A stretch of DNA of 64,000 nt from contig MU271154.1 in assembly GCA_021432605.1 (NCBI GenBank), positions 644,035 through 708,034 on the forward strand, in the 5' to 3' direction. Positions within the stretch are counted from its first letter, which is position 1. Every line of letters begins with the position of its first letter. The DNA is from Coniochaeta sp. PMI_546. Lineage: Eukaryota; Ascomycota; Sordariomycetes; Coniochaetales; Coniochaetaceae. The notes beneath the pieces are model-generated. The model was not told the DNA's origin, made no database searches, and was given only the letters and a program-made list of their open reading frames with translations. Below are positions 32,761 through 63,905 of the stretch, piece after piece. Made by a program: the position numbers and the translations under genes.

Positions 32761-34084
32761 ATGCAGTCTAACATGCAAGCCAACACCCAGGCCAACGCCC
32801 AGGCCTTTATACGGGATGTGCTTCAACAGCTTTTGAGCAGAAATCAGGTAGAGGCCGCGATATACCAGAAGCTGAACGGATATAATGACGTCCCTACAGT
32901 ACGTCTTGCGATTCCAGTGGCCGCACGCTGTACTTCCTTTGCCATCCCCACTAACATATGTACAGTCACTGGCTACCGTCTTTCTCTTGGGTGGCTCGTC
33001 AGCTCAGCTTCAAGCTGTCTACGATGCCAGCAAGGGAAACCTCCAACCGTGGTCCATGTCGCCGTCTCCCATCCGCACCATCGAGTCTCAAGAAGAACAC
33101 TTGGGCGATGCGCGGTTCCAGAGAGCATATATGGACCACTTCAGCTTACAGCACATCAGAAAAGGCGCTAGACATACAGTCGAATGGGCTGCGTACAGCC
33201 TGATAGCGACAAAAGCTGGCAGACAGCTTCTGTACGGACTTTTTGGCCGGTTTGGACGATCCCTTCTGTTTCTCAGCGACGGCTTGGAGGTCCCATCGGC
33301 ACTCATGATAGTCCAGGCCCTTGCGCTGGCGGCAGTAGACTGGCATGAGAAAGTTCAAGACTTTATGGTGGCATGTGCCTGTCCCCAACACGGCCAGGTT
33401 TCTGACAGGTTTATGCTAAGCCCAATCTCCATTCTCCAGCGTGTTGGCGAGGACGGCCGCTTCAGCGGTCTCCGTGGGCCCGGCGTCGAGAGCACCATTG
33501 GTATCCTGGGCGATCACGCCAGAAAAACAGCAGTCATGCAGCATGTAAGCCAGCTTGACGTCTCTGACATCTATACCACCCTCCGCGACCTTTCTCGCCT
33601 TTCTATCTTGGTAGCCTGCGCAACGCATAAGCGAGGTCAACCTGCGTTCGATCATTGCCTCGCCCTTTTCCCAGCATTCGTTGTGTCCCTGCGGGTGCTC
33701 TTGAAGGGCTTCGAGGAGACCGGCGCACACTTCAAGGAGACTGATCGTATAATGCTTGTTCGCGGCGTCTGGATGTTGATGATTGTCGCTTACATTCGTC
33801 AGCTAAGACCCAAGATTGATGAACTTGTCGTTCCGATGTTTGATGACCCGCCCAGCTGGGAGCAGCTTCTTGCTGGGTTCCACAGAGACACCTTCTCGGC
33901 AGGTAGCAAGTATGGGGATGCGCGATTTCGAGGCCTGCTACGGAGCATCCGCCGGCTCGCAGCGGATAACGATCTCTACGACCCGGCCTGGTATAGAAAT
34001 ATGGCCTCACATATGGTATATCAGTGGCGCGGATGGTCCGGCCAAGGCCATGCAGGGGCAGAGTACCTGAACGTCAGGATGTGA
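32761..34084 (+). CDS. Questin oxidase-like protein (AflY/MdpL family)
   Basis: Exons 32761-32898 and 32966-34084, with a 67-nt intron (GTACGT donor, CTAAC branch, TACAG acceptor), give 418 residues. The frame starts with a Gln/Asn-rich leader, then an LGGSSAQLQAVYDASKG segment and a mostly helical body with HLGDARFQRAYMDHF, AAYSLIATKAGRQLLYGLFGR, HPxF-lacking central helices and a C-terminal FHRDTFSAGSKYGD segment followed by WYRNMASHMVYQW. This order fits the questin oxidase-like family (DUF4243), whose members include enzymes that open anthraquinone rings in emodin-derived pathways. Length is normal. No polyketide synthase or anthraquinone gene is adjacent, so the substrate is unknown. Confidence 0.8.
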
Positions 34085-35193
34085 TGGAATTCAGACCGTA
34101 CCTCTGGCGAAGCGTTTCTTAGGGGTCATGATTGATAGCGCGGTTGTATAGTAAAGGTCGGTTTCATTAAGCATCTACACTCGGTATAGACAGAGACATG
34201 ACAGTGTCCATTGCATTTTTAATCACATCTTAATACCAATATCGCTGGAAACAGCCCCTTTCCACTCGACGCAATCCTGTCAACCGTGAAGCATCACGGT
34301 TTCTTTACAGCAATGTTCCGGGTTCTGATGCAATTGTCGACACCACGTGCATGGGTCGTCTACTACGAATGAAATTTCGCAAAGGAGATGTTTGCGCAAG
34401 AATCCAGGGGTCGAGGTTTGACGCAGCCGGAGCTGCAAGAAAGCTTGCTGACTGAAGTCGGTACGGCTGAGCCACCAGCCACCACTCGACGTGCATCACA
34501 CATCCGCTCAAGATTGACATGATCCCATCAACGTCAACCCTTCGCCTCTGATCACCAATTATGCAACAGTGCCACACCTTTTCAAAGAGTCAGCAACTTC
34601 ACACCAATACTTGAAGGTACTAAAACCCTGGAAAAATGTGATGAGCTATTGACCTCAAACAAACTCCAGCCGCAACTGCTCCCGGCATGTAATCCACTCC
34701 TCTAGCCTTGTTGGGAGGACTGTGACAAGACCAGCATGGTGAAGTCCACACCGCATAACGAATCATGACATCGTAGATTCCAAGTAAGAAGGCTTGTACC
34801 GTGAGCTGAATCATGTGCTCCGTAACAGACAGCATTGACACAGGGGCGCAACCAGATCCAACGTCGACAACGGTCCAGCCATCCCACACAGACGTCGACA
34901 CGAAGGCGATATGCACGGGCTACTAGATAGCGCAAGACAAAACAGCGAGAAAACAGGCAGTGCTGAAAGGATGGGCATCATCTTCTTCTCGTCCAGCCTT
35001 GATCTAGCCTCTTGACAGTTCAGCCGAGTCCTCGACCGACCTCGCGGCTCCAGACGCCTTCATCATCTAGTAGTGTACAGATATCAAAAATTACAGGAAA
35101 GTAGAGAGGGAGTAATACAATGAAAGGCCAAAGGTCCGGAACGCCTCGTCTCCTCCACCTCTCCTGCGCTGCTCCTCAAATCACAGCTCCCGT
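34085..35193. other. Intergenic between convergent genes
   Basis: About 1.1 kb between the 3' ends of the questin oxidase-like gene and the Mam33 gene. Only short frames; nothing recognised. Probably both 3' UTRs plus spacer. Confidence 0.5.
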
Positions 35194-36100
35194 TCAAGCA
35201 TCAATGAACTTCTTCAGCCCCTCCAACCAGCTTAGATACTCCTTCTGCTCCTTGACATCCATGTAATCCGGAACAAACACAGCAAGCGCCTGCGTCACGC
35301 CCCTCTCCTCAAGGAACCTCTCCATCAGGATCTGCAGATCCTCATCGAGACTGCCGAACGGCGGGCCGGCATAGACACCCTGAGCTTTGTGGGCCGCCTC
35401 GCCGCTCTCGCCGTAGGCAAGGGCCTTGTCGGTGAAGTAGTATAGGTTATCGACAATGATGGAACCGTCCTGGGCCGTAGCTTCAATGTTCAGCGCACCG
35501 GGCTGGTTCGGCTTCTCGACTATGACGGTCAGACGACAAGGCACGGCCGCATCGGCGCGGTCGTCGGCGTCCTCTTCGGCGTTGGGGTCTTGGTTGTTGC
35601 GGGCGGCGTCGACGTCTTCCTCGCCGAGGGCAGAGTCCTCGTCGAACATGTCCGGATCGTAGTTTTGGAGGTCGGCGATGGAGAACTTGATTGTGATCCT
35701 GGAACAGAGTGTTAGTCCTGTCCAATCTACCAGACAATTTAGAGACGGGGTGTACATACTTCTCGTTACCAAAGTTGCGGGTAAGCGTAACCTCCTCCTT
35801 GCCGGGTATGTCCTGAATCTCGAAGGGACCGTTCTCGAGGAAGTCCTTGATAGAAGCCGGCAGCGGCTCGTTCTCCTTAACGTCGTTCTCGTACTCAATC
35901 TCACTGCCGAGCTTGGCAGACAGCTCCTCGTCGACCTCGCCGGCGGCAGCGCGGCGAAAAAGAGACGTGGAGAAGGCGGATGTCTGTCTGACGACGCGGG
36001 ACGACTGTTTGCTGAAGAGGGTGGTTGTGCGGGCGGCCGGGCGTGCTGTACGGGCGAGGAACCGGGGCGCTGAGCGCGCGGCTGTGCGGAGCGAGATCAT
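35194..36100 (-). CDS. mam33: Mitochondrial p32/Mam33 family protein
   Basis: Exons 36100-35760 and 35698-35194, with a 61-nt intron (GTATGT donor, TTCCAG acceptor), give 281 residues. The first 45 residues are rich in Arg, Ser and Ala without acids, a typical mitochondrial presequence. The mature part is acidic and follows the p32 order: ELSAKLGSEIEYE near the N-terminus, TLTRNFGNEKITIKFSIADL across the splice junction, an Asp/Glu-rich loop, RLTVIVEKP, then IIVDNLYYF and GPPFGSLDEDLQILMERFLEERGV, ending in QKEYLSWLEGLKKFIDA. Members form a doughnut-shaped trimer in the matrix and support mitochondrial translation and respiration. All family features are present. Confidence 0.95.
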
Positions 36101-36454
36101 TTTGGATTGAGCGGTTATGGTGAGCGAGGCAAAGACGCTATGAGGAGCTGTGGTGTTGAGATGTGGTATGGCTGTTGGAGAGGAGGATGTGGTTTGTAGA
36201 ACAGAAGCTAAGAAAATGGGGAGCTCTCCAGCTCCATCGAAAGCTTCGAAGCTGCTTCGAAAAATTCCTGACATTCGATACTTTTTTGAGCACAGACCAC
36301 ATCGTCCGCCCCCAGCCAATCAACGCAGTTGCGAAGAGAAAATCTCAAGCTGACTAAGCTGCCTCTGTTCACCTCCACGACGATGACGGCGACAACGACG
36401 ACAGGCCTTTGATCATCCAGCAGTGTCTTATATCTCTGGCAGAAAACGCTCAAA
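36101..36454. other. Divergent promoter (Mam33 / Tma16)
   Basis: 354 bp between two divergent housekeeping genes, with purine- and pyrimidine-rich stretches and no gene. It probably drives both, which fits coupled expression of mitochondrial and ribosome-assembly functions. Confidence 0.5.
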
Positions 36455-37171
36455 ATGCCCACCACACTAGAAAAGGCGCGGAAGCACATCACCAAGAAGA
36501 AGGGTGCCGACGCCTCAGGTGCTCTTCACCAGTTTTCCCGGGATTCCAAGCGCCTCCAGACCGCTCAGATCCGGGATGAGCGCCTTGAGAAGCTCGCAAG
36601 GTCGAGAAAGAAGAGGGATAAGCCACTGCGTGAGTGATTTCCATGTTATAGTGACGTGGAGTCCTTTTGGTGAGTTAGTGCTAACTTGAGTTGCAGTCGA
36701 GCGCGTGGCTTTCTTCCAGGAAGTGAGCCGTGAGAACGGCGGCAAGGCCCTTGAGATGGCTACCATCCACTCTAAGATCCAGGAGTATGTGTGCATCTGC
36801 TTTGCAGTCCTTTAATACACGCTGCTTATACATTTTACAGGTTTGTACACCAGTACGACGAAGAGTACGAACGGCAGAAGAAGGCTCGCCGCCCAGGCCG
36901 GCCAGCCAGCGCGAAGGAGGATCTCTTGAAAGTTGCGATCAAGGGTCTCGAGACCGAGTATGAGAAAGGCTTCTGTAGGTTCCGTTCTCCACCTCTTGGC
37001 TTGTGACCCACTTCTTACAGTGATCCAGACGTACCAGACCTGACTGACGAGGTCAATATATCGGAGCTCGATCGTTGGGAAGGCTCGTGGGCTTACTTGT
37101 CAAATCTGAAATGGGTCAAGATCACAAAGACAGGAGATGTGAGGCCCTCGACTTTCCCTCCAAAAGCTTGA
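36455..37171 (+). CDS. tma16: Translation machinery-associated protein 16
   Basis: Four exons: 36455-36629, 36697-36784, 36841-36978 and 37021-37171, giving 183 residues. The start MPTTLEKARKHITKKKG is the typical Tma16 opening. QFSRDSKRLQTAQIRDERL, VAFFQEVSRENGG and FVHQYDEEYERQKKARRPGRP follow in family order, then PDLTDEVNISELDRWEGSW and an FPPKA end, which matches the FPPK ending of fungal relatives. The third donor was placed at 36979 (GTTCCG, weak) because the stronger GTAGGT four bases upstream breaks the frame; the resulting intron is only 42 nt. Tma16 associates with pre-60S ribosomal particles in the nucleus. Confidence 0.9.
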
Positions 37172-38133
37172 GTCTGTTTCAGGATGGCGTTGTCTAGATG
37201 AAGGCCAACGACTGGGCCAAAGCACACTCAGTCGAAACACTCAGGTTTAGGAATGCCCGTACAGTCCGCAAACCCAAGTCGACAAACCAAGACGATGGTA
37301 TAGATGTTCTATGACCGCGTTTCCGGGGACTGGCGTCAGTGGCATGCCAGCCCGTCCATCGATTGGCAACCCTTGGGCCTTACGGACAGACTGCCATGAC
37401 TTTGGTGTTTTACTTTAAGGACCATGGTGGAATTGCTTGTTGTTTTGCAGGTACTATATATGCAAGACGCTGGCCAACAGAATATGACCGCCGGAGGCAG
37501 ATATCGGCATTTCCTCGGTAAGCGGGAACAGTCCTATTCCTGGATGAGGCTGGGTATTACGACACTTGTGTTGTCGCCGAGGCACTTGCGTCAGAATGAG
37601 GGCAAATTGGATGGAGAGGACTATGAGTGACCAAATTGCAGCAAACCCGTGCGTAAAAGCCATTACTCCCCACAACTGCGCTCTCACAACTGTTGGCCTA
37701 TGCTACTTCGTCGTCGAGATAGGATATTCTCTTCTGGCCGTCACTTCCATGACAATCGATAATGTGTACGTGGATGCTATACTTCACGTCTTGATCCCAG
37801 CTTTCGAGCGTGCCGTTCGACGTAATGCCTGGTCACAGGGTTTACTTCCCAATCTTGTTCAGTGTTATCACTTGAATCGCCCAGAGCTTGGTTTACGTTG
37901 GCGGTGGGAAAGGGGTCATGGAATATGAATGGCTTGTGGAGTGTCCAATGCTGCCCTAATGCTCGAATTCATACCAACGGGACCATTTTCGCCATGAATA
38001 AGCGCCATGCCTCCCGCGCGCGACCATCCCTATGACGCTAGTGCCGGGATCGGATCGAAAAACAGACAGGCTTTGTCTAAATGTTCGCGGGCCACTCTGA
38101 ATACTCCGTGATGACTTTGTAGCACCATCAAGT
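37172..38133. other. Intergenic between convergent genes
   Basis: Nothing is supported. A 38-codon ATG frame at 37198-37314 follows the Tma16 stop but matches no part of that family. Other frames (for example 120 codons at 37566-37928) have no domain. Confidence 0.5.
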
Positions 38134-38937
38134 CTATAAAGCCCCCGTTTCTCTTGCCAACTCGAGGATCTTCGAGACCACCAGTTCCACATCCGGCGCC
38201 TTGATTGGTATCCTGTGTTCTCCGTCCCACTCAGCCAGCTTAGTCGTTCCGCTCTTACAGTACAATGTCATCAGCATTCTATGTCGGTCAATGCCGGGAT
38301 CTTGTAATCCATGTACATGAACCGTCGGGGTTCGAATAGAGTGGTCGCCTTCATGGGACATCGGCCAATCCGCAAATGCCATGCTCAGGCCATCGGCAGT
38401 TGCCACGTGACGTGGTGTAGAACCGAGGTCGCCTGTGGGATCGAGATTTACCAGGGGGGCACTACCGGCCATGAGGACGCCGAAGCGGAAACTGACATGA
38501 GCTCCAAGCTGCGGCAAGTGGTCTCGTCCCTCTACCGACTTGGGCGTCCTCTCCTGCAACCACAGCAAGCTCGCTGCTATCTTCGCGCCCTGCGAAAACC
38601 CTAGGACGCCGACCCAGTCGCCAGTGCCCGGGTCACTTTCGATGGCGGCTTTGCATTGGGAGAGGATCATGTCCGCGGCTTCGTGGGCATGCACCTCGTC
38701 ATGCTCGTCCTGCCATCGAAGCCAGCGGTAAAAGGGTCCATAGTCGCCGTATACCCGCTCAATTGCCGAGTGGGCGCTACATGGGAAGGGACCGTCGAGA
38801 AAGACCAGACGGAAATGCAACGCTAGGCTAGAGGAAAGGAAGCGGCGGCACTGGAGACGAAACACGGTCGCATTGACACCACCGCCGTGCAGACAGAGGA
38901 TGCGAGGGAGGTGCAGTGGTGGGTTGACCGATGCCAT
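38134..38937 (-). CDS. FSH1-type serine hydrolase
   Basis: A 267-residue single-exon alpha/beta hydrolase of the FSH1 (DUF341) family. LCLHGGGVNATVFRLQ at residues 14-29 holds the oxyanion loop. The nucleophile elbow is GFSQGA (Ser115). The acid is Asp213 in HVHGLQDPGID and the base is His241 in WDGEHRIP. The triad is complete and length is normal. Some fungal relatives in secondary-metabolite clusters act as product-releasing thioesterases or as esterases (LovG and CtnB types); others are housekeeping enzymes. The location between a questin oxidase-like gene and an A-T-R reductase allows the first role but does not prove it. No signal peptide, so probably cytosolic. Confidence 0.87.
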   Translation of the reverse strand: MASVNPPLHLPRILCLHGGGVNATVFRLQCRRFLSSSLALHFRLVFLDGPFPCSAHSAIERVYGDYGPFYRWLRWQDEHDEVHAHEAADMILSQCKAAIESDPGTGDWVGVLGFSQGAKIAASLLWLQERTPKSVEGRDHLPQLGAHVSFRFGVLMAGSAPLVNLDPTGDLGSTPRHVATADGLSMAFADWPMSHEGDHSIRTPTVHVHGLQDPGIDRHRMLMTLYCKSGTTKLAEWDGEHRIPIKAPDVELVVSKILELARETGAL

Positions 38938-41112
38938 TTTCTTTTGGCGTCGCCAGCATTCAGACCGCAGCGGCGAGCAATACGAAATAAGCCAGAGACC
39001 TGGAGATGGTGTAAAACCTGAGAGTCAAGAGCTCCAAAACCGAACAACAAGAGGAGATGAGTGACTGCAGGACAAAGAAGGCTGCCGTGAATCTTTAAAA
39101 TGGTATCGCGGCGTTCGGCGCGCTATGCTATTGGTGACCCATGCGCTAGAGATCCCTTGGCTGCCCGCTGGCAGACCGGCAGCGGCAGCTACAGCTGTGG
39201 ACTTACACGGGGTCTGGAAACTGCAAGCAGGCTGGTCAGCACTCAGCAAGCCATAGAAACAAGCCAAAGTGGATAAGATAAGCGACCTTGAAACTTGCGT
39301 TGTCGCCTCTCGCAATCTTAGCTGTCTACCAGCCGCAACTGTCGATTGTTGTACGTCAACAAACCATCAATGCTCTCACACCGCCTTTCCCCCCCGGCTA
39401 TTCATCTCAGAGAAAATCACTGAAAATATATTTGGCGCTAAGAAGATAGGAGCGGCCAGAAACTTGAGGTCGAATGGACCTGGCAGCCGCAAGGCCGTTG
39501 TACACGAACATGAGTACCTTAATTATAGGCCTCCAAAGTGATACTCCCCACACTTGAAATGTTAAGGGGGTAAAAGAACTGATATCCGCATAGTTCTGTT
39601 CAAAGCAACGAGCACTCGACTCAGATATCCAATGGTTATTCTAGAAGTATGGCTCCCCTATCTCGCGCCTTCAACACATACTCGGTGTTTCCCCTTGGAC
39701 CGTCAGGTGTCAGCTACATCTTCTGCGTCGGCGCCCTTGTTATTCTAGATGGCTCTCGTAGCTGTAACTGGTTTTAGCTGTGCCCAGCATTGCTATACTT
39801 GTTGGCCATTCTATCTGTGGCGTTCACGATGACGTTGAGCTTTGCCCGCTGCCACGCTGGTCACCGCATTTGGCACGTCTAAAGACATTGCGAACTCTTG
39901 ATACACCAACTTCATTTGACGGCGTATAAGTGATGATCCGAAGACACTGGTGTGGTTTGTAGATATGTATTGGATGTGCGTGTACCGATCAGAGGCACAA
40001 TTACACTCTCCCCAGGCTTGAAAATCTCTCTTTGGCGTTTCACGAAATGGCCGATGTATCGAAGATCTATCCTACGGCGCAAGCAGGTAATCTATTCGAT
40101 GGCAACATGAATTCGGGCTATGCAGATACCATCTTTGTACACACCGCAGCCTTGCAATCCCAGACCGCTCACTTCGCACATCGCTTCGTGACTGCGAGGA
40201 TGAGCGGTATGGTGTACCCTACTTTGGCACATCCAAGACACTCACTAGCTTGGCACTAGCTTGGTGCTGGTTTCCTCGACTAACTACAGCAGATCTGGCA
40301 CGTATTTTGCATGTTCGATACAAATCGATCGATACCGGTCCGGGAAGGGGATTGAAGGTTTTTAAAGTTCAGGCTTTAGGTCTGCGATACTCACTTAGAC
40401 GGACTTACGCTACTTCAGATGGTCACAATGGTGACGGAGATTTGATCCGGCTTGACAGGGCTCAATCACCTTTCTTCTGGGCAACGACTGGACAAATAGT
40501 ATGCTCTCGCCCAGAGTGGCTACTATTCTCTATTGCCTGTGGAGCTTTGCTACAGTGCTACTCTGTGCCCTGGACGGTTTTCCAGCGTCATTGGAGGCTC
40601 CAACCTGTGCTAATTTGTGCAGACTTGTCCGAAGTGGCAAAGAAGCGAATCTTCGGTCTTGCCAACACGCGAGAGAGCGAGAAATGCAAAGCGAAACATA
40701 GTCTCCCGGATTTTACGGGGGACAAGAGGGCGAAGGGGTGGATCGGGCAGATCCCGTTGTTGATGGAGATCCCGGCCGCTTTTTCGAAGCGTTACAACTA
40801 TTTGCCGCGTATCTACAAAGCGGAGAGCTCAAGTCTGTCGTCCCATTTAATTGCGGCGCATGTCCGAAAGGGGTATGTCGTATCTGTCGCACCGTATACA
40901 ACGGTCACATAAAAGCTAGCAACAACCAAGTCGCGTCATGGGATCAACAGTGAGGATCTGCGGCATCTATCTACACGGTATCGGTCTATACCAAGGTTGA
41001 GGTATAATGACAAGTATCGTTGTAGGATAAAACCCTCGATCTCTCTCCTGTTTTCCCGCAATCGTCAGCAAGCGAGACTTGAAGTCATTTGAGCCATAAT
41101 ATTGATCACATT
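38938..41112. other. Intergenic, 2.2 kb, with one dubious frame
   Basis: Presumably the promoter of the minus-strand hydrolase and of the plus-strand reductase. A 220-codon frame at 40250-40912 begins at TTG, has no ATG in a good context and no domain; I treat it as doubtful. Confidence 0.45.
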
Positions 41113-44100
41113 ATGGGTTCGAGACAGCCACAAACGACTAGCGGTTCCCGAAGCGGTCGACTACTTGTCAACATCGTTGACGAAGTTGCACAAGATGATC
41201 CCTTGCGGCCGTTTGCGTACTTGCCGAAGTCGAGCGTTCCACAAGATGGCTGGATGTCAATAAACTATCGCGAAGCCGCGAACGGCATCAACTACGTCGC
41301 ACATGAGCTCGTTCGCGTCAACGGCCGCCCAGCTGTACACACCTTCCCAACTGTGGCTTACATCGGGCCTAATGATGTGCGTTATATCCTGTTCATACTC
41401 GGGGCTTGTAAGGCGGGCTTTAAGTCCCTCCTAATCTCCCCCAGGAATACCGATGATGTTCAGCTCCATCTGTTCAATGCGACCCAATGCCAGCTCCTTT
41501 GGCATCCATCGACTCATGCCAAGCTCGTTCAGCCGTGGTTGGGACGACGGGATATATCTGCTACCATCATGCCTGACCTGTCAACTTTGATCCATACTGC
41601 AGTCCCGCACTTCCCATACGGAAAGACTGCAGATGAGGCAGAGTGGAATCCTCTCGTGGTCTTGCACACTAGCGGGTCTACTGGGTTCCCCAAACCCGTC
41701 GTCTCCCGCCAGGGATTGTTCACCAAACTCGAAAGCTTCAGGGACTGGCCGGAATTTCACGGCACACGAGTTGCATACACAGTATGGGCACAGGAAGCCG
41801 ACAAAGTATTCATGACAATGCCGTTATTTCATGCCGCCGGACTCTACGTTTTCATGGTTCTTACACTTCACATGGAGAAGACCTGTGCTCTACCTATTGC
41901 CGAACAGCCGATGAGCTCTGATATCATACAACAGTCCATCCTTTGCTCGAAATCGGATGGCGCTGTCATGCCGTCGTCTGTCCTCGACGAGGTCGGGCGC
42001 TCGGAGGAGGGGATTGTTGTGCTGAAGAAATTGGCATTCGTCGCGTTCGGGGGAGGTAGCCTACCGAGGGACATCGGCAACAGGTTGGCGGAGAGGGGAG
42101 TAGTGCTTTCAAATGCAATTGGATCATCTGAGTAGGTGAAAGCCCTCCTGGAACTTGCCACCGTCCAGGTGCCATTCTATGTGCTAACATGAGTGTCACG
42201 GCTTTTGCAGAATGGGCATTTACCCCATCTATTTTATACGCGACCCAAAATTGTGGCAATACATGCTCTTCAACGCCGAGCTTATGGGGTGTGAATTTCG
42301 CCGCTGCGATGATTCCGGAGAGGATCTATATGAGTTATGGGCGGTGCGTCCGTCTTCACCTGACCGGCCAGCGCCGCTGGTCTTCTACACTTTCCCGGAT
42401 CTCAACGAATGGTCCACAAAAGACCTTTGGAAACCACATCCCACGCTCCCGGATTATTGGCTTTACTGCGGCCGTGTCGACAATGTAATCGTTTTTTCCA
42501 ATGGAGAGAAACTGAATCCGGTCACCATCGAGGACATGGTGTCTACTCACCCCGGGCTCAAAGGTGCGCTAGTTGCTGGCCAGGGTAAATTCCAGGCGGC
42601 CCTCATCTTAGAGCCTGTCTGTCCGCTGGTCGATGCTGAAGAAAAAGAGAGACTCATTGATGATGTTTGGGACCTGATTCAAGAGGCAAATAAACAGACG
42701 GTCGCCCATGGACGTATTGCCAGGGACCTCATGATGGTTGCTCTTCCAGAGAAGCCGTTTGCGCGTTCAAGTAAAGGATCCATTCAGCGAGGCATCACGA
42801 CGAAGATGTATGCAGACGAGATCAATGATTTGTATGAGGATACCCGTGAAGTCGGACAGCCGGCATACTTGGATATGAGTACGAACGAAACGCTCATCAG
42901 GAGCATTCGCGCTCTTTTCGTCAGCATTGGAGTTCCATCTCTGGAACCGGATACGGACTTTTTCAGTGCGGGTGTCGACTCATTACAAGTTATGACGGTC
43001 ACACGTGCGCTACGTGCTAGTCTCGAAGCGGGGAGTATACATACGCATATCACGACAGCGACAATCTACAGCCATCCCACTCTGCGCAAGTTGGCGGAAC
43101 ATCTTCGGTCTGGAGATGGCAGCGGGTCGGAATCCAATGACACCGAGAATACAAGACGTCTTTTGGCTCAATACACGCGAGATATCCCAGGATCTGTCGA
43201 CGGAAAGTTGACACCAGTGTTTAAGCGTCAAACAGTCGTCCTTACTGGCTCAACGGGGAGCCTGGGGTCGTACCTCCTGGACGCGCTGATAGCCTGCCCT
43301 AATGTTGAGAAGGTCATAGCTCTGAACCGGTACGAGGACGGGGGCCAGGGAAAACAAGAATTTGTGAATCGCAGACGCGGACTGTCAACTTGCTGGGACA
43401 AAGTGTGCTTTCGTCATGCAGACCTAACCTCTCCGACACTTGGTGTGAGTCTCGCAGATTACACGATGCTACGTACGGAGACAGATCGCATCATCCACAA
43501 TGCTTGGCCCGTCAACTTCCATTACTCCACCGCGTCGTTTGCTCCACATGTGGCGGGCGTGCGACACTTGTTCGATCTCGCCGCTGCCGCGCGAAAAAGA
43601 GCAGCCCTCGTCTTTGTGTCAAGCCGTGGAGTCGTTGACCGTTGGCGCTCGGCGGACCCCGTACCCGAATCTCAGTTGTCAGATCTGAGCCTCTCATCGC
43701 CGGGCTACGGACGGGCCAAGGCTGTGAGTAGTTTGGTGCTTGACGCGTGTTGCAGGGCCTCGGACGTCCCCTGTGCAAGTATCAGATTGGGACAAATAGC
43801 TGGACCTAAGTCATCAGAGGGGCAATGGAGTCCGCAAGAGTTTGTTCCGAGTCTTGTAAAGAGCAGTGTGCACCTCGGTGTCCTCCCAGGCGGAATGGGA
43901 TCGATGAACGTGGTTGACTGGATCCCTGTTGAGGACATGGCTGGCCTGATATTAGATGTGGCTGGGATCGCAGTGGATATCCCTGTAGACGACATCAAAG
44001 GGTACTTCCATGGTGTGAATCCTCAAACCACTACTTGGCAGTCTCTGGTTCCGGCCATCATGGAGGTGTACGGCGATAAGATCAAAGAAGTTGTCTCCTT

Positions 44101-44335
44101 GGAGCGTTGGATTGATATGCTGGAGAAAAGTGCCTCCAACGCCGGAGATGCGGATGAGAATCCGGCGATCAAGTTGTTAGATACGTACAAGACGTTTCTG
44201 GAGGGAGAAAGATCGGGACATGGGTTCGTGGTGCTTTCAACGGACAGAACCAGGGAGAGGAGCCTGACAGCGAGGCGACTCGAGGCTATAACACCTGAGA
44301 TGATGAGGCATTGGTGCCGACAGTGGAAATTCTAG
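41113..44335 (+). CDS. NRPS-like A-T-R carboxylic acid reductase
   Basis: Exons 41113-42131 and 42211-44335, with a 79-nt intron (GTAGGT donor, TTTGCAG acceptor), give 1047 residues. The adenylation domain covers about residues 15-540, with the AMP-binding core HTSGSTGFPKPV at 185-196, an FGGGSLPRDI segment near 315 and a Y/WLYCGRVDNVIVFSNGEKLNP hinge near 425. The carrier domain holds the phosphopantetheine serine in FFSAGVDSLQVM (Ser597). The C-terminal reductase begins with the NAD(P) motif VLTGSTGSLGSYLL (about 683-696) and continues to GYGRAKAV, the YxxxK-like site. No condensation domain is present. Such enzymes activate an aromatic or other carboxylic acid and reduce it to an aldehyde. 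The substrate cannot be read from this sequence. The start at 41113 is the first in-frame ATG. Confidence 0.92.
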
Positions 44336-56203: not shown

Positions 56204-56695
56204 AGAGCAATACTCCACGCGTAACCCCATTTCAAGACGACACCCAGACCGGTACCTGGATGAGTCTTGGATGATAACCCTACGGGATTCCTGAGAAGGA
56301 TCTTGGAGCTCCAAATCCGACCGACGAAAGATGAATGTCATCGAGGCTTACATGGGTCCATGTGTCTTCGATCCTTAAGCTATAGAGTATATACGGAGTT
56401 GGAATCATTAAGCTCTTACTCTCCATCACAGCTAGAATCGATTAGCTTATACTCCTCTGTGACGTGTCATACAAAGAAACCAAGTTCACCAGACCACAAT
56501 ACATCGTACTTCTATGCTCTCCCTCTCGTTTTTCTCTCACCCTAATTCGTTCAGTTCGAATGACCCATGAGCGCACTGAGCATAGAGTAAGCCATCTTCT
56601 CGGATGTCATCTCTTTCGCGACTATTGAAGCATCATAACAGGCAATTACGACATGTTAATCCGGACGCCGATGATTTCCTCCCTCGTGGCCGGTC
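56204..56695. other. Intergenic, no gene seen
   Basis: About 500 bp, short frames only. Confidence 0.5.
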
Positions 56696-57427
56696 CGGTT
56701 TCCAAACCCCCTGACTCCCCTCCGTCTTCTCCTCCACCCCGACGCCCTGACAAATCTCCTCCTCGCCGCCTCGCCTTACGGGGCGTGGGACACGATCACC
56801 GCATCGATACCCCTGATTTAGTCAGACATCTACTCCTTCAAACCGCTTGCGGTCGGACTCTGTTATCTCGCCGGTGGAGCTGGTATTCTGGCAGGCGGCT
56901 TAGTCGCCGGATGGCTAATGGATTTCTCATTTGCGCGAGTGGCACGGTCTGCTGGGCTCGATCCCAAACATCGGGACATACGCATCTTCTCCATCGGATA
57001 GACCACGTCCTCCCGCTTGATTGTCATCACGGCTGTGACCGCTGCAGGGTTTGTCGCGTATGGCTGGGTCGTGTAAAGGGCAGTGCATCCTGCTCTTTCG
57101 TTGGTGATGCAGTTCGGACTTGGACTCGGCGCTACCGTGGCGCATCAGGTGTATAGTGCGCTGCTTGTGGATGTCTTTCCGGATAGGCCTGGCACGGCTG
57201 GGGCAGCGAATAATATGTGTCGATGCGCCCTTGCCATGATAGGAGTAGCGGTCATGCAGCGGCTCGTGGAGAGGATCAGGAGAGGATGGTTTTTCACTGG
57301 GCTGGGAGTTGTGCATGGTTTGGGCTCTGCGATGGGTGTTTGGGTGCTGAGGAGGAAGTGTCCGGAGTGGCGGAAGGAGAAGATTAGGAAGATAGAAGCT
57401 GGGAGTGGTAAGGGGTTTATGGGATAG
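56696..57427 (+). pseudogene. 3' half of an MFS transporter with three in-frame stops
   Basis: One reading frame (codons from 56696) runs from RFPNPLTPLRLLLHPD to a TAG at 57427. It follows the order of DHA1-type MFS drug/metabolite transporters: LLAASPYGAWDTITASIPL, SDIYSFKPLAVGLCYLAGGAG, GRLL-like GWLMDFSF..RVARSAGL, LGLGATVAHQVYSALLVDVFPDRPGTAGAANN and an MQRLVERI tail. The frame is interrupted only by TAG at 56819-56821, TAG at 56999-57001 and TAA at 57074-57076, with no frameshift. All three are what CAG or CAA codons become by C-to-T change at CpA. The N-terminal half is not found upstream. Non-functional. Confidence 0.85.
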
Positions 57428-58074: not shown

Positions 58075-61000
58075 ATGCCGCGGTTGTCTTTCTTCCGACG
58101 CAGGGCCGTTGTTCCTGAGTCTCCCGGCCCACGCAGCCTCGTGATCCGCGAGTATCCCAACGCACAGCCGCGAGAGAATGCACCCGAGAAAGATATCCGT
58201 CTCGGCTTGACGACTCTCTATAATCCCGACGGCAAAATTACGTGCGATCTGATTTTCGTCCACGGCCTGAATGGTCATCCGCGGAACACATGGTGCCTTG
58301 ATAGCGATCCGACTCTGTTTTGGCCCAAGCGGTGGCTGCCAAACGATGAAGCCTTTCGACATGTTCGGATCCTCACCTTCGGCTACCAGTCAGCCCTATT
58401 CGAGGACGGAAATGCAACGTTCAGCATTCAGAACTTTGCCACGGCTCTGATGGAAGCAATGATGGCAGATAGACTTTCGGAATGGAATCAATCTAAGCTT
58501 TCCAAGGTAGGTACAACCCAACGAGGTTATATGTACGCGCCTTCTACTTCCTAGACGCTTGCAATGGCATGTTGGCACACCAAACTGACGCCGGTCAACC
58601 AAAGACCCCGATCATCCTGGTCGGCCATAGTATGGGCGGCTTGGTAATTAAACAGGCTTACATACTCGGTCATGAGGACTACTGGACTTACCAACCGGTG
58701 GTCAGAATGATGAAAGCCATGTTCTTTCTCGCCACGCCCCATCTCGGCGCTGAAAGTGCCGTCACGTTGATGCGTGTCCTATCTCGCCTCCCAGGCCAGG
58801 AGACGCCTGGTTTCGTTCTGGATCTTGCTCCCAAGTCTATGCTGCTGGAGTCAATCAATGACCGATTTCCTCGCCTGTGCGACAACCATGAGGACCTACA
58901 ACTATTTTCTTTCTTCGAAACCCAGCCAATGAACTACGGTATTGGCAGAGGTCTGATTGTGGAAAAGGATTGTGCTATCATGGGCTATCCTACAGAGCAC
59001 AAGACTCCCCTGAACGCAAACCACAGGACGGTTGCAAAGTATACTTCGCCTATGGATCCGTCGTATATCGCTGTACGGAATGCGCTGGCGAAATGCATCG
59101 AGGCTCTAAGGGTACAGACCGCCAAATCCGAAGCCATTCTTATGTGGAAGAGAGTCTCGTTCAGGCCGCTTCTCATAGAAGAGCTCCGGATGGCGCTTGA
59201 ACTTGATTTGGGGCACGAGGTTCACCTGACAAACAAGGAACTAGCATCCTGCTGCGGACTTGGGAGTATTGAACGACTATTCAAGTCTACAGACGAATCT
59301 AGAAGGCGACTTTGGTCCGACGGCATTGTGAAAAGCCATGTAAGGGTTACACTGGTGTGCATCCAATACTTATTGGATATGAGCAAGGGGAAAGCTCGCT
59401 TGCGTGATGAGATCCAAGGGTCCAACTTGTTTGGGTACGCTTGTGAGCACCTGTTCCGGCATCTTGACCTGCTTAAGGAAGGGGTGCGGCCTTTTAGTTC
59501 GGCGTCCTCGACAGGCGAGGTCATACGGATGCTTGCCAGATTTTTCTCAGCAGACAGCGTCCTCATCTGGATCGAGAACATCGCCGCTCATTCCAATTTA
59601 CGCATAATATATGCGGCACCGGACACCATTTCTTGGCTTCTTCGAATGCACCTATCTCTTGGTCCAGATGCCAATCAGTTAGTGGAGGAAATTGCGACAT
59701 TGAGATCATGGGCCAAGGACCTGCAGCGTTTCGTTTGGGCATTCTCTCGGCGGTTGAAAGAAGCACCGTACACCACCATACGCCGACTTATACCAGCATT
59801 CTGCCCTCCAACATCAATAATCCACCAGCAGTTCAGGACTTTCAGCGGCGTTAGAGTCATTGGGATCCGTGAGAATACATGGGGGAAACATCCAACTGTC
59901 ATCCCTTTCGAGCTGTCGCCTACGGCCGTTGCTGTCGGGCCAGGCTTAATTGCCCTGGCCTACGTATACAAAGACAACGGCGATATCATCATTTACGACG
60001 ACGAGACTCTCGTCCCAATTCACACATTACATCATTGCTGCAGCTTGTTTACGGTGTTGGTTTTTGGGACAAATGGCAGATATCTCGCTTCCTCTGCCCA
60101 AACTGATAGTGAGGGACATGAATACAGCATCCGCGTCTGGGAGATCAAGTCCTGGAGCGAGGTTTATATTCTGACTCTGCCATCCCGCCCGATAGCCATG
60201 AAATTGGAGACCCCGGTACACAACTTCCGGTTCAGACGATCTAACCTTTACGTTCTCACCGAGTCCGGTGAGATTTGGCACTTCGAGATCGAAGCCATTA
60301 TCAACGGCTACATCAATGACTGCCATTGTCGGAGACAGCTCTTCCCGGACGCCGAGATCCATTCAACCCGTCTCAATATAGTCAAGGCGGTCTTTTGTCG
60401 CTTCAGATCCTACGTGGCAATTGTGTACGACGGAGTGAGTGGCTCAAATGCTGGAAGAGTTGGAGTCTATGACTTTGGAATGTGCGGGTCGACACTCAAA
60501 CGCCTACCGGAGATCCTGTACTGTGACAAAAGTGTCGTCGATCTAGCATTTGGCAAGGCCACGTTTCGGCGGGACCGGCGCTTTCACCCCGACTCCAAAT
60601 CTGAGTCCGAGCATGACAGGGTTTCCCGCAAGCTCGTCGTTCATGACAGGGTTTCCCGCAAGCTCGTCGTTCATGGACGGCCCAGGCCCAGGCCCAGTTC
60701 CAGAATGAGCTATGGCTGGTTATCCCGCATGCCCGTGATTCGTGGCCATGATACCCTAGCGATCGCATACTCAGATCAAAGTCTCATTGTCTACCGCATC
60801 GACAGCGGCACGAAGATGAGCGAACTTGAAGGGGTACCTATTTCCTGTCTTGAATCGTCTTCTGGCGGCTGGGGTTTCATCGGCGGGACCGTAGAAGGGG
60901 AGATCTGGGAATGGGCTGCAGATTCGTTAGTACCCACCTTTCGCATCTCGGATGCGACGAACCGGCTCGGTCCCATATATGCGGCTCACACAAGCTGCGG

Positions 61001-62135
61001 GAACGATATCGTTGATGTCAGACGATTTCATTGCCGTGTCCTGTATCCTTACTCCCGCAAAGCCAACACGGCGGTCGAGAGTGAAAACCCAACGCTGATA
61101 ACCGCCGTGAGTTGTGCCAACGCGCCCGACTTCCCTCAATTGGTCGTCTTTGTCGGGAAAGGGGACGGATCAGTCCACCTGTATAGATTCGCGGACGGAC
61201 ACTCCGAGGAGCAGCTATTCACGCAGTCAATGGGCACCGGGATCCAGTATGTCCATTTCGATAACGGCTTGCTGACCGTCTGGGATTACTCAAACATGAT
61301 CACATGCCGTGTGATCAAGATCGCACAAACTTCACGGACGGTGGTCAATGCTCCGTTGCTTCAACTTAGTGTGGAACTTGATCCAATCGAGTCCCAAGTC
61401 ATGGCCAGCGGCAAACACTCACGAGCACTCATCGCTACCGCCTGGGGCAAGGTACTCTCCCTCTATCGCTTGGACAATCCTGACACCTATGATCCAGTCG
61501 ACTATGAAGTCAAAGATGACGATACGACGAAACATTGGGCGTCTCATCCCAGCAACCCAGACTGGGTCATCTCTATCGGGCGGTCATCTGTTCAGATCAG
61601 AAGTTGGAGGGATCTTTCTTGTCTGACTACCACCCAAATCCCTAACCTCGTCCAACCCAATGGCGATGTGCTGTTCATAAAACACCAGTACGCATCCCAT
61701 GACTTCTTCGTGGTGTATTCATTTGTTGCAGCAAAATACTGGGATAAAGAAACGTCGTCTCACATACAAATCTGCGACTATTGCGCCATCGGCACCGAGA
61801 CAGACTCTATACTTCCTGGGCCGAGCTTGAGTATGCAACCCCTGGACCTTCCAAGGGTGTGGGAGGTCCTCGGCATCTATGACAGACGGTTAGTATATCT
61901 TAGCAAGGACTTCTGGGTGTGTTCAGTCAGCATATACATCCCAGAGGACACGCCTACGAAACACTTCTTCATCCCCGACGACTGGCGCAGCGCTCATCCT
62001 GAACTTTGGTTCCGCCTATCAACGGATGGAAGCGTCCTGGTTGTCAGGCATTCAGAGATCTTTGCCTTCATGGGAGGGCTTGTTACGAAGCAATCCCTAC
62101 CTGTGCCTGCCAATGATAGACAGTCGTCGTGGTAG
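58075..62135 (+). CDS. NLR-like protein: alpha/beta hydrolase plus beta-propeller, NACHT missing
   Basis: Preferred model: exons 58075-58510 and 58555-62135, 1338 residues, intron donor GTACAA and acceptor TTCCTAG. A stronger donor (58507, GTAGGT) would need the acceptor at 58604 and also keeps frame; both give the same fold. Residues 55-330 form a lipase-like alpha/beta hydrolase: HGLNGHPRNTW near 63-73, nucleophile elbow GHSMGG (Ser171), ATPHLGAE near 205, and HRTVAKYTSP near 302. The next recognisable segment, at about 337-365, is ILMWKRVSFRPLLIEELRMAL, the element that follows the NACHT domain in fungal NLRs. No P-loop (GxxxxGKS/T) or Walker B lies anywhere between or elsewhere. Residues about 590-1320 read as beta-propeller blades of WD type. 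It lies less than 2 kb from the telomere. Confidence 0.82.
60612..60671 (+). repeat. Perfect 30-bp tandem duplication in coding sequence
   Basis: Two identical 30-bp units, 60612-60641 and 60642-60671, each encoding HDRVSRKLVV in frame. Because the copies are identical, the duplication is recent or is kept identical by slippage. It sits in a charged loop between propeller blades, ahead of an Arg/Pro-rich GRPRPRPSS stretch. Confidence 0.9.
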
Positions 62136-62406
62136 ATGAGGTCCGCGAATCGCGCAAAAGTCTTGGGGTAAGAGGCTGTGGATTGTTCTACTCTATTTTG
62201 TCTCTTTTGTTCTACTTTAGCTGGTTGGCTTTTCCTTGGTTGCTTTACTCTGCTTTGGGCTGATGCTCTACTTTAGTTGGACATTGTTTTTTCTCCCATG
62301 GTCATGGCTAATGATGAAACTCCTATGTTCGAGATATACTTACGTTCTAAATCGTGACCTGTTGGCGCTAAAAGTGTGTCCTTGTTCTGTAACCTCTCGC
62401 CAGGCC
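62136..62406. other. Spacer between last gene and subtelomeric repeat
   Basis: T-rich plus strand with two CTACTTTAG-type units (about 62211 and 62270). No gene. Confidence 0.5.
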
Positions 62407-63171
62407 CCTAGATATTAGGAATGCCATAGAGACCTCTCTTTGCCCGCAAAACAAAGTCAGTCCCCTAGTCGTTTTAACGTCAAAAACCCCTATTTTCGAC
62501 CTCTTTCTAACGTTTTTTAAAAGAAATCTATAATTATTTAACGTAAGTTATTTACTCTTATATCGTATAGGAAAATAATCCGACCCGTATTTCTAATTAT
62601 TAAAAGGTACCCTTTTTATAATCTTATAATAATATACGTAAGGTTATTTATACTTTTAATATTTAAAAGTATTCCTTTACCTTTTTTATCTCTTTTTTTT
62701 CATTTTTTATCGAAATATAAGTATTATTAAATAAAGTATCGTTATTACCGAACTTTCGTAAGGTTAATTTAACGTCCTTTTCTATATAATTAATACGCCG
62801 ATTTCTTTAAAACTAGTTTATATTTAAATAAACCTTTTTACCAAAACCTTTTTTAACCCAAAACCTTTTTTATAATTAGATAATACGTTATTAAACCTCT
62901 TTCTTAATTTATACCTTCTTTTCCTTAAGACCTTTTTTATCTAAAACCTTTTTAATAAACCTTTCTCTTTATAATTTATATTTAACTAAACTTCTTAACC
63001 GAAACGTAAACCTTTTTCTTTATAGTTTATATTCGACTAGACTTCTTAACCGAAACGTAAACCTTTCTTTTTTATATTCGATTAAACCTTTCGACCGAAA
63101 CCTTTTTAATAAACTTCTCTCTCTATAATTTATACTCGACTAGACCTTTTATTTAAAACCTCTTTAATAAA
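62407..63171. repeat. Subtelomeric AT-rich repeat, copy 1
   Basis: Starts with CCTAGATATTAGGAATG and runs about 765 bp until the same start recurs at 63172. Very AT-rich and without open frames of note. The first 110 bp align without gaps to copy 2. Internally the last third holds tandem units of roughly 55-60 bp, each with an AACCTTTTT...TTTATA(A/G)TTTATA core and a CTTCTTAACCG(A)AACG-like end (about 62940-63160). Confidence 0.85.
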
Positions 63172-63905
63172 CCTAGATATTAGGAATGTTATAGAGACCT
63201 CTCTCTACCCGTAAAATAAAGTTAGTCCCCTAGTCGTTTTAGCGTTAAAAACCCCTATTTTCGACCTCTTTCTAATATCTTTTGAAAGAGGTCTATAGCT
63301 ATTCAACGTAAGTTATTCATTCTTACGTCGTATAAGAGAATAATCCGACCCGTACCTCTAGCTACTAAAAGGTACCCTTTTTATAGTCTTATAATAATAT
63401 ACGTAAGGTTATTTATATTTTTGATCTTTAAAAGTATTCCTTTGCCTTTTTTATTTGTTTTCTTCTATTTTCCGTCGAGATATAGGTATTATTAGGTAAA
63501 GTATCGTTATTACCGAACTTTCATAGGGTTTATTTAACGTCCTTTTCTATATAACTAGTAGGCTAATTTTTCCAAAACTAATCCGTATTTAAATAGACCT
63601 TTCTACCAAGACTTTCTCTAGCCCGAGATTTCTCTTATAACTAGATAATACGCCGCTAGACCTTTTTCCTAATCTATACCTTCTTTTCCTTAAGACCTTT
63701 CTTATCTAAGACTTCCCTAATAAACCTTTCTTTCTATAGTTTATATTCGATTAGACTTCTCTTTTAATCTATACCTTCTTTTTACTAAGATTTCTCTTAT
63801 CTAAGACCTCCTTAGTAAACCTTTTTTTTTATAATCTATATTCGACTAAACTTCTCTCTTACCTAAGACCTTTCTTATCTAAGACTTCCTTAGTAAACTT
63901 TTCTC
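63172..63905. repeat. Subtelomeric AT-rich repeat, copy 2, truncated at the telomere
   Basis: Second tandem copy in the same orientation as copy 1. It begins with the same CCTAGATATTAGGAATG and ends within the internal short-unit array where telomere repeats begin (63906). Compared with copy 1, the clearly aligned differences are transitions, and most fit CpA-to-TpA or TpG-to-TpA, the RIP signature. Confidence 0.85.

Follow-up and report, generated by a model that had tools for sequence, protein, structure and literature searches.

We analysed a 64,000-nucleotide stretch of the genome of Coniochaeta sp. PMI_546 (contig MU271154.1, here C12, positions 644,035 to 708,034; hereafter the window) that contains, at 58075-62135 of its forward strand, a gene resembling a nucleotide-binding oligomerization domain (NOD)-like receptor (NLR) without the NACHT nucleoside triphosphatase (NTPase) module. 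The interpretation that we favour, with a probability of roughly 0.45, is that this target gene derives from a NACHT NLR with the architecture sesB-hydrolase / NACHT / winged helix / helical / propeller, that it lost the nucleotide switch along its own lineage, and that its spliced product of 1320 residues may work as a nucleotide-independent hydrolase. The absence of NACHT had been claimed by the original prediction, which was made from the sequence of the window; what is newly recognised, by alignment with related genes, is that the winged helix is damaged too. The target would thus be a receptor remodelled to do without its normal switch, or else one that has begun to decay: function is plausible, if unproven, and early pseudogenisation is a strong rival close behind. 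NLRs are understood as ATP-driven switches, and a natural relative that has no nucleotide machinery and keeps both effector and sensor would test the need for that switch.

The missing module becomes apparent by comparison with other genes of the same genome. Our own-genome searches, which covered 33.5 Mb in 24 contigs and whose counts are lower bounds, returned at least 29 matches, distributed over the target and 13 further loci. Of the latter, seven have the whole architecture (hydrolase, NACHT, winged helix, helical region and propeller): L009 (C2:518k), which is a single open frame, and L010 (C9:762k), L011 (C6:2467k), L012 (C5:1951k), L013 (C15:125k), L014 (C2:2507k) and L015 (C12:520k), for which spliced models were obtained by a purpose-written protein-to-genome alignment; residues before the hydrolase are modelled in L009 only. 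Mean identity between the target and these paralogues is 18-39% depending on the domain. All seven contain an NPHP3_N match and a P-loop-like sequence; a genome scan for a paralogue with an intact NACHT had been proposed in the original prediction. Where they carry 314-331 residues (linker, NACHT and lid), the target has four, QTAK (residues 315-318, 59115..59126), close to the position of about 59130 first given for the junction. Because the coding DNA is contiguous and in frame across the joint, no intron at this place could conceal a NACHT exon.

The module was sought in several further ways. The P-loop and Walker B patterns that we tried are all absent from the target protein, as had been noted before, and the 10 Pfam families found up to E 1 include PGAP1, DUF676 and GPIID_WHD but no NACHT family (the run used an earlier model of 1338 residues). 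Profile searches for an overlooked NACHT exon, or for remains of a NACHT in other parts of the window, found neither: a NACHT profile built from the seven paralogues and run unfiltered on all six frames gave a best match of only E 0.45. Genome-wide, PF05729 has at least 16 matches and NPHP3_N has at least 67 up to E 1, none of them at the target. The winged-helix family GPIID_WHD provides a control. It has at least 20 matches up to E 1 in the genome, 14 of them, including the target, over the cut-off; one match was set aside since we read its frame as a SEN1-like helicase, and an NPHP3_N match lies just upstream on the same strand in 18 of the remaining 19. The target is the exception.

Among the other six loci with a related hydrolase, four (L016, L018, L019 and L021) have a NACHT match, and L017 has a P-loop-like sequence that we take to be of NB-ARC type. 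The stretch around L020 (G000:C3:2912000-2919000), a distant hydrolase of sesB-like type whose frame spans 321 residues and which may be a stand-alone esterase, gave no NACHT match. Hydrolase genes without NACHT may therefore number more than one in this genome, but among those found here the target alone also has a winged helix and a propeller part.

The second lesion lies downstream of the junction. The first half of the winged-helix domain (residues 319-362, 59127..59258) is present and corresponds to positions 13-56 of the 90 positions of the GPIID_WHD profile, with 22.5 bits against a cut-off of 27 on the 1338-residue model; in the genome search the same place scores 26.9 bits, or 27.2 with its neighbours, and is marked as over the cut-off. 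The second half (residues 363-400, 59259..59372) is altered. In the paralogues the domain ends, with variations, in hhhHxTAxEFL, and 13-17 of their residues directly ahead of the HxTAxEFL motif are absent from the target, although the alignment is loose here. The motif columns themselves read LGSIERLF in the target, with glycine in place of the histidine and isoleucine in place of the threonine, both of which are invariant in all seven paralogues. Compensating frameshifts were considered for this segment and rejected: the other two frames contain stops, and no motif was seen in them. The original prediction, which described the post-NACHT segment as kept, had missed this lesion.

The winged helix of human NLRs is described as carrying a patch, FxHxxQEhxA, whose histidine is proposed, by comparison with Apaf-1, to take the place of sensor 2 in contacting the ADP phosphates; it is reported to be missing from a few of these receptors (PMC2323615). 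From its position and pattern, the fungal motif histidine would be the counterpart of the human ADP-contacting residue. If so, both the NTPase and the nucleotide reader are gone from the target, which retains only the first half of the winged helix that, with its nucleotide-contacting histidine motif, characterises STAND/NACHT NLRs. Such damage is the outcome predicted from relaxed constraint on nucleotide reading.

Two exons separated by a 98-nucleotide intron make up the target gene. Exon 1 (58075..58506, forward strand as for all features of this gene) encodes residues 1-144, which form the N-terminal half of the alpha/beta hydrolase and include an oxyanion-type HG (H63-G64, 58261-58266). 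The intron (58507..58604) is in phase 0, reads GTAGGT..AAG and contains a CTGAC branch-like site that begins 20 nucleotides before its end, and exon 2 (58605..62135) encodes residues 145-1320 and the stop codon. This model replaces an earlier one with a frame-keeping intron of 44 nucleotides at 58511-58554 and a product of 1338 residues. The longer intron has the stronger-looking donor and the branch-like site, agrees in column and phase with paralogue introns (it shares an alignment column with those of L013, L014 and L015, that of L011 being one column off), and lets the hydrolase profile match as a single piece of 290.6 bits rather than as two pieces of 283.8 bits. The frame previously described as open is indeed so: exon 2 runs without interruption to the stop codon at 62133-62135, no frame-breaking lesion of the kind that marks a pseudogene is found in the target, and the intron signals are intact. 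Base composition is also in the range of the paralogues, with a GC content at third codon positions of 0.595 (paralogues 0.525-0.673) and repeat-induced point mutation (RIP) indices of 0.56 and 1.23 (paralogues 0.51-0.61 and 1.11-1.39). At the DNA level the gene matches only its own locus in the genome, and no relatives of exon 2 were found among viral contigs.

The N-terminal sesB/PGAP1-like alpha/beta hydrolase (residues 43-314, 58201..59114 with the intron inside) is an effector domain of a known NLR class and is 37-42% identical to that of the seven NLR paralogues. Pfam matches it with PGAP1 (25.0 bits, cut-off 24.3) and DUF676 (22.9 bits, cut-off 20.3). Its nucleophile elbow GxSxG is present as GHSMGG, and in the hydrolase triad region, first judged intact, the residues of the probable triad, S153 (58629-58631), E249 (58917-58919) and H284 (59022-59024), are invariant in the paralogues and kept in the target; H63-G64 is kept as well. 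From its sequence position, E249 would be the acid. In the PDB, the hydrolase of the target alone matched one chain at E 0.67, and when seven hydrolases, those of the target and of six paralogues, were combined into one profile, 22 distinct sequences were hit up to E 1, mostly lipases and esterases, with BlEst2 the best at 1.6e-05 and a glycosylphosphatidylinositol (GPI) inositol-deacylase at 0.23. A PADLOC search matched exon 2 with DUF626_VIII at E 2.7e-07 (28.1 bits) and L009 with DUF626_VIII at 1e-08, LmuA at 6.2e-05 and DrmC at 0.0036.

Downstream of the winged helix, a helical region (residues 401-560, 59373..59852) that keeps its conserved columns is followed by a first propeller part (residues 561-980, 59853..61112), eroded or rewired relative to the paralogues, and a second propeller part (residues 981-1320, 61113..62132) with a C-terminal HFFIP-type motif that the paralogues have too; domain limits inside the C-terminus were drawn by eye. 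The C-terminus, the repeat sensor expected of an NLR, aligns with the paralogue propellers at about 19% identity, and its WD40-type Pfam matches are under their cut-offs, those of the paralogues being mostly stronger. Because the helical region and propeller part are still attached, the target is not the effector-only variant that had been suggested. An insertion in the propeller part holds an exact in-frame tandem duplication of 30 bp (60612..60675, 2.1 copies, 100% match), which looks recent and is followed by a short PR-rich stretch.

To compare conservation along the protein, we counted the columns in which the seven paralogues do not vary. In the hydrolase the target retains 38 of 42 such columns (the changes are R191L, S267C, L270M and F290Y). 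In the winged helix it retains 2 of 2 in the first half and 2 of 4 in the second, and further downstream 11 of 12 in the helical region and, for the second propeller part, 6 of 7. In leave-one-out counts, target and paralogues are judged alike. For columns identical in six of six, retention in target and paralogues is 0.90 and 0.92 in the hydrolase (287/320 against 294/320), 0.91 and 0.91 in the helical region and 0.81 and 0.79 in the second propeller part; it is 1.00 and 0.78 in the first winged-helix half, 0.45 and 0.90 in the second, and 0.45 and 0.89 in the first propeller part. Relaxing the threshold to at least five of six gives 0.85 and 0.86 (hydrolase), 0.80 and 0.74 (helical region), 0.66 and 0.71 (second propeller part), 0.96 and 0.70 (first winged-helix half) and 0.30 and 0.75 (second half), and narrows the deficit of the first propeller part to 0.50 against 0.66. 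When the hydrolase, the helical region and the second propeller part are pooled (55/61), they differ from the pooled second half of the winged helix and first propeller part (7/16) with a Fisher p of 0.0002, a grouping chosen after the data were seen, which leaves out the first winged-helix half and includes propeller columns that align poorly.

The target's origin was assessed with a tree of its hydrolase, those of the seven paralogues and six other hydrolases of the same genome. The target groups with the NACHT-bearing L010, L011, L013 and L015 (86/85), a group that does not include L009, L012 and L014, and loss is therefore simpler than primary absence. NACHT was most simply lost by the target, and a single loss on its own lineage would be the simplest account. 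A tree of the C-terminus gives the target no firm placement. L013, L014 and L015 have a phase-1 intron in the linker between hydrolase and NACHT, 1 to 19 columns past the junction column 377, a possible hint to the breakpoint. We looked for an origin of the breakpoint in this intron and recognised no matching remnant in the bases of the target; it remains a lead.

We propose the following course of events. An in-frame loss of about 310-330 codons would have cost the gene its linker, P-loop NTPase and lid, as the paralogue comparison indicates, and a further change, visible in the alignment, would have taken 13-17 winged-helix residues and the motif histidine, whose part in nucleotide reading is suggested by human NLRs. 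The remaining sequence comprises a hydrolase whose putative triad is intact and, linked to it through half a winged helix and the helical region, the propeller part. With no NTPase and, as we read it, no nucleotide reader, the usual ATP-gated oligomerisation would be unavailable to the target alone. Instead, the protein could act as a hydrolase that needs no nucleotide: the binding partner of the propeller would directly determine its activity or its location, or co-assembly with an intact paralogue would do so in place of ATP-driven oligomerisation; direct gating by a propeller ligand or co-assembly with a paralogue seem the most likely modes. A broader proposition, that fungi convert NLRs into switch-less receptor-enzymes in which the propeller gates the hydrolase directly after loss of NTPase and nucleotide reader, is a speculation that we regard as unlikely at this stage.

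Several observations weigh against a working switch-less receptor. The first propeller part keeps only 5 of its 12 invariant columns, having lost seven, and its erosion, like the exact 30-bp duplication, fits decay as well. The residues retained elsewhere may predate the loss. The target is the longest branch of the C-terminal tree (2.45; median 1.14), support is weak (45/77) for the hydrolase-tree branch that joins it and the seven paralogues to the exclusion of the other hydrolases, and a single-sequence AlphaFold2 model of the winged-helix and helical part (58965-59807) reached a mean predicted local distance difference test score of 40.7 and was not used.

Much of this is what a young pseudogene would look like, that is, an NLR disabled by an internal deletion at a fast-turnover chromosome end that has not yet acquired stops, and we consider this explanation a serious possibility. 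It accommodates both losses in the regulatory core together with the eroded first propeller part, the duplication and the long C-terminal branch, and the gene lies about 1.77 kb from telomere repeats. How much the open frame says against it was gauged by simulating an unconstrained copy, which loses its frame at a median of 0.0015 mutations per site (95th percentile 0.0066) with 10% indels and at a median of 0.005 (95th percentile 0.0214) with substitutions only. As frames survive so briefly, an open frame speaks for constraint or for recent loss, and rules out only that constraint was lost longer ago than corresponds to a divergence of a small fraction of a percent to about 2%. The pseudogene explanation has more difficulty with the fact that all three length changes (NACHT, winged helix and duplication) keep the frame open, that intron signals are intact, and that the hydrolase, helical region and second propeller part keep strictly conserved columns about as the paralogues do. 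The original claim that the gene is "not simple decay" is accordingly upheld by the open frame, the conserved hydrolase columns and the paralogue-like RIP indices, and is weakened in that a young dead gene would be compatible with the simulated frame survival.

Alternatively, the target could be a non-enzymatic modulator that binds the same ligand or the paralogues through its propeller and helical region and dampens them, much as NRG1C, a plant NLR in truncated form, does to its neighbours. Retention of the helical region and second propeller part would suit this role, for which plants offer precedents in NRCX and NRG1C as described in PMC9851556. We consider it improbable: a pure binder has no need of the putative triad and oxyanion residues, all of which are kept, and NRG1C lost its executor domain, whereas the target lost its switch. 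An assembly collapse or gene-model error concealing a NACHT is very improbable. NACHT-type sequences are indeed numerous in this genome (at least 67 NPHP3_N matches up to E 1), but the in-frame DNA is contiguous across the joint, the locus is matched once at the DNA level, the window holds no NACHT trace, and the winged-helix motif is independently damaged, which would not be expected from collapse of NACHT alone. Equally far-fetched is a hydrolase-propeller protein that never had a NACHT and merely resembles NLRs, an idea that draws on the weak branch mentioned above and is countered by the retained half winged helix, found downstream of NACHT in 18 other cases here, and by alignment with the paralogues through to the C-terminus.

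The favoured reading, a derived NLR with its switch removed, can be set beside several known systems. Fungal NLRs that combine sesB-like, NACHT and WD40 domains are exemplified by Podospora NWD4 (PMC3321046), and sesB-like domains are given as a common NLR N-terminus (PMC4986451, PMC9815663). Members of this class, as surveyed in PMC4986451 and PMC12258605, share hydrolase class, winged helix and C-terminal propeller with the target, which differs in having neither NACHT nor the winged-helix histidine. Genes for sesB are also reported to stand alone beside STAND genes (PMC3321046); such SesB effectors likewise have a sesB-type hydrolase without a NOD domain of its own, but they are described with a C-terminal amyloid-type motif, whereas in the target a helical region and propeller part are attached. 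Four regular-expression patterns for sigma- or PP-type amyloid motifs, based on PMC3321046, found none at the C-terminus of the target. In plants, some NLRs are known to have turned into modulators after losing a module (PMC9851556), and NRCX and NRG1C resemble the target as NLR paralogues kept after losing a defining module; according to that source, NRG1C lost its executor N-terminus and NRCX its executor function, whereas the target keeps the executor and loses the switch. Coral glycosyltransferase proteins with tetratricopeptide (TPR) or ankyrin repeats, which occur without NACHT beside NACHT-bearing relatives, show a similar effector-repeat arrangement with a different enzyme, and the portions of PMC12314368 available to us do not mention a winged-helix remnant. 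The construct NWD2(1-30)-GFP, made from another fungal NLR, indicates that a self-assembling NLR signalling end can act without NACHT (PMC4344463), but it is artificial, signals by amyloid and has no enzyme. Fungal cell death has been reviewed (PMC12881547).

In the literature text available to our searches, we recognised no fungal hydrolase/winged-helix/propeller protein without NACHT, which is not proof of absence in print. The fungal NLR survey in PMC12258605, as excerpted, picks genes by their nucleotide-binding domain, so that proteins like the target could easily be missed and the class may be under-counted. The same source states that 60 NLR sequences without a nucleotide-binding annotation were given types by blastp, and some of these could resemble the target. 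If our interpretation is true, switch-less receptor-enzymes would be easy to overlook in NLR catalogues based on the nucleotide-binding domain.

The window ends where the contig ends: 15.8 copies of TTAGGG terminate the 708,034 bases of C12. The position next to the telomere, as first described, is confirmed by this array and by an AT-rich stretch common to other contigs. This stretch (62400-63900) consists of AT-rich subtelomeric repeats with 68-90% identity to stretches of C1, C2, C7, C8, C21 and C24, and its relatives in C2, C7, C8 and C21 sit near a contig end. The subtelomere beside the target has RIP-type indices of 1.63 and 0.15; together with the introns and the gene content, these would suit a filamentous fungus. 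Just upstream of the target, at 56629-57427, lies coding sequence like that of a major facilitator superfamily transporter, apparently split over frames, either by an intron or as a broken gene, with a Pfam match only in 57077-57427. Farther away, at 32876-44332, frames for a questin-oxidase-like protein, an FSH1-type hydrolase and AMP-binding, carrier and reductase domains of the non-ribosomal peptide synthetase (NRPS)-like type are clustered and possibly form a secondary-metabolite cluster.

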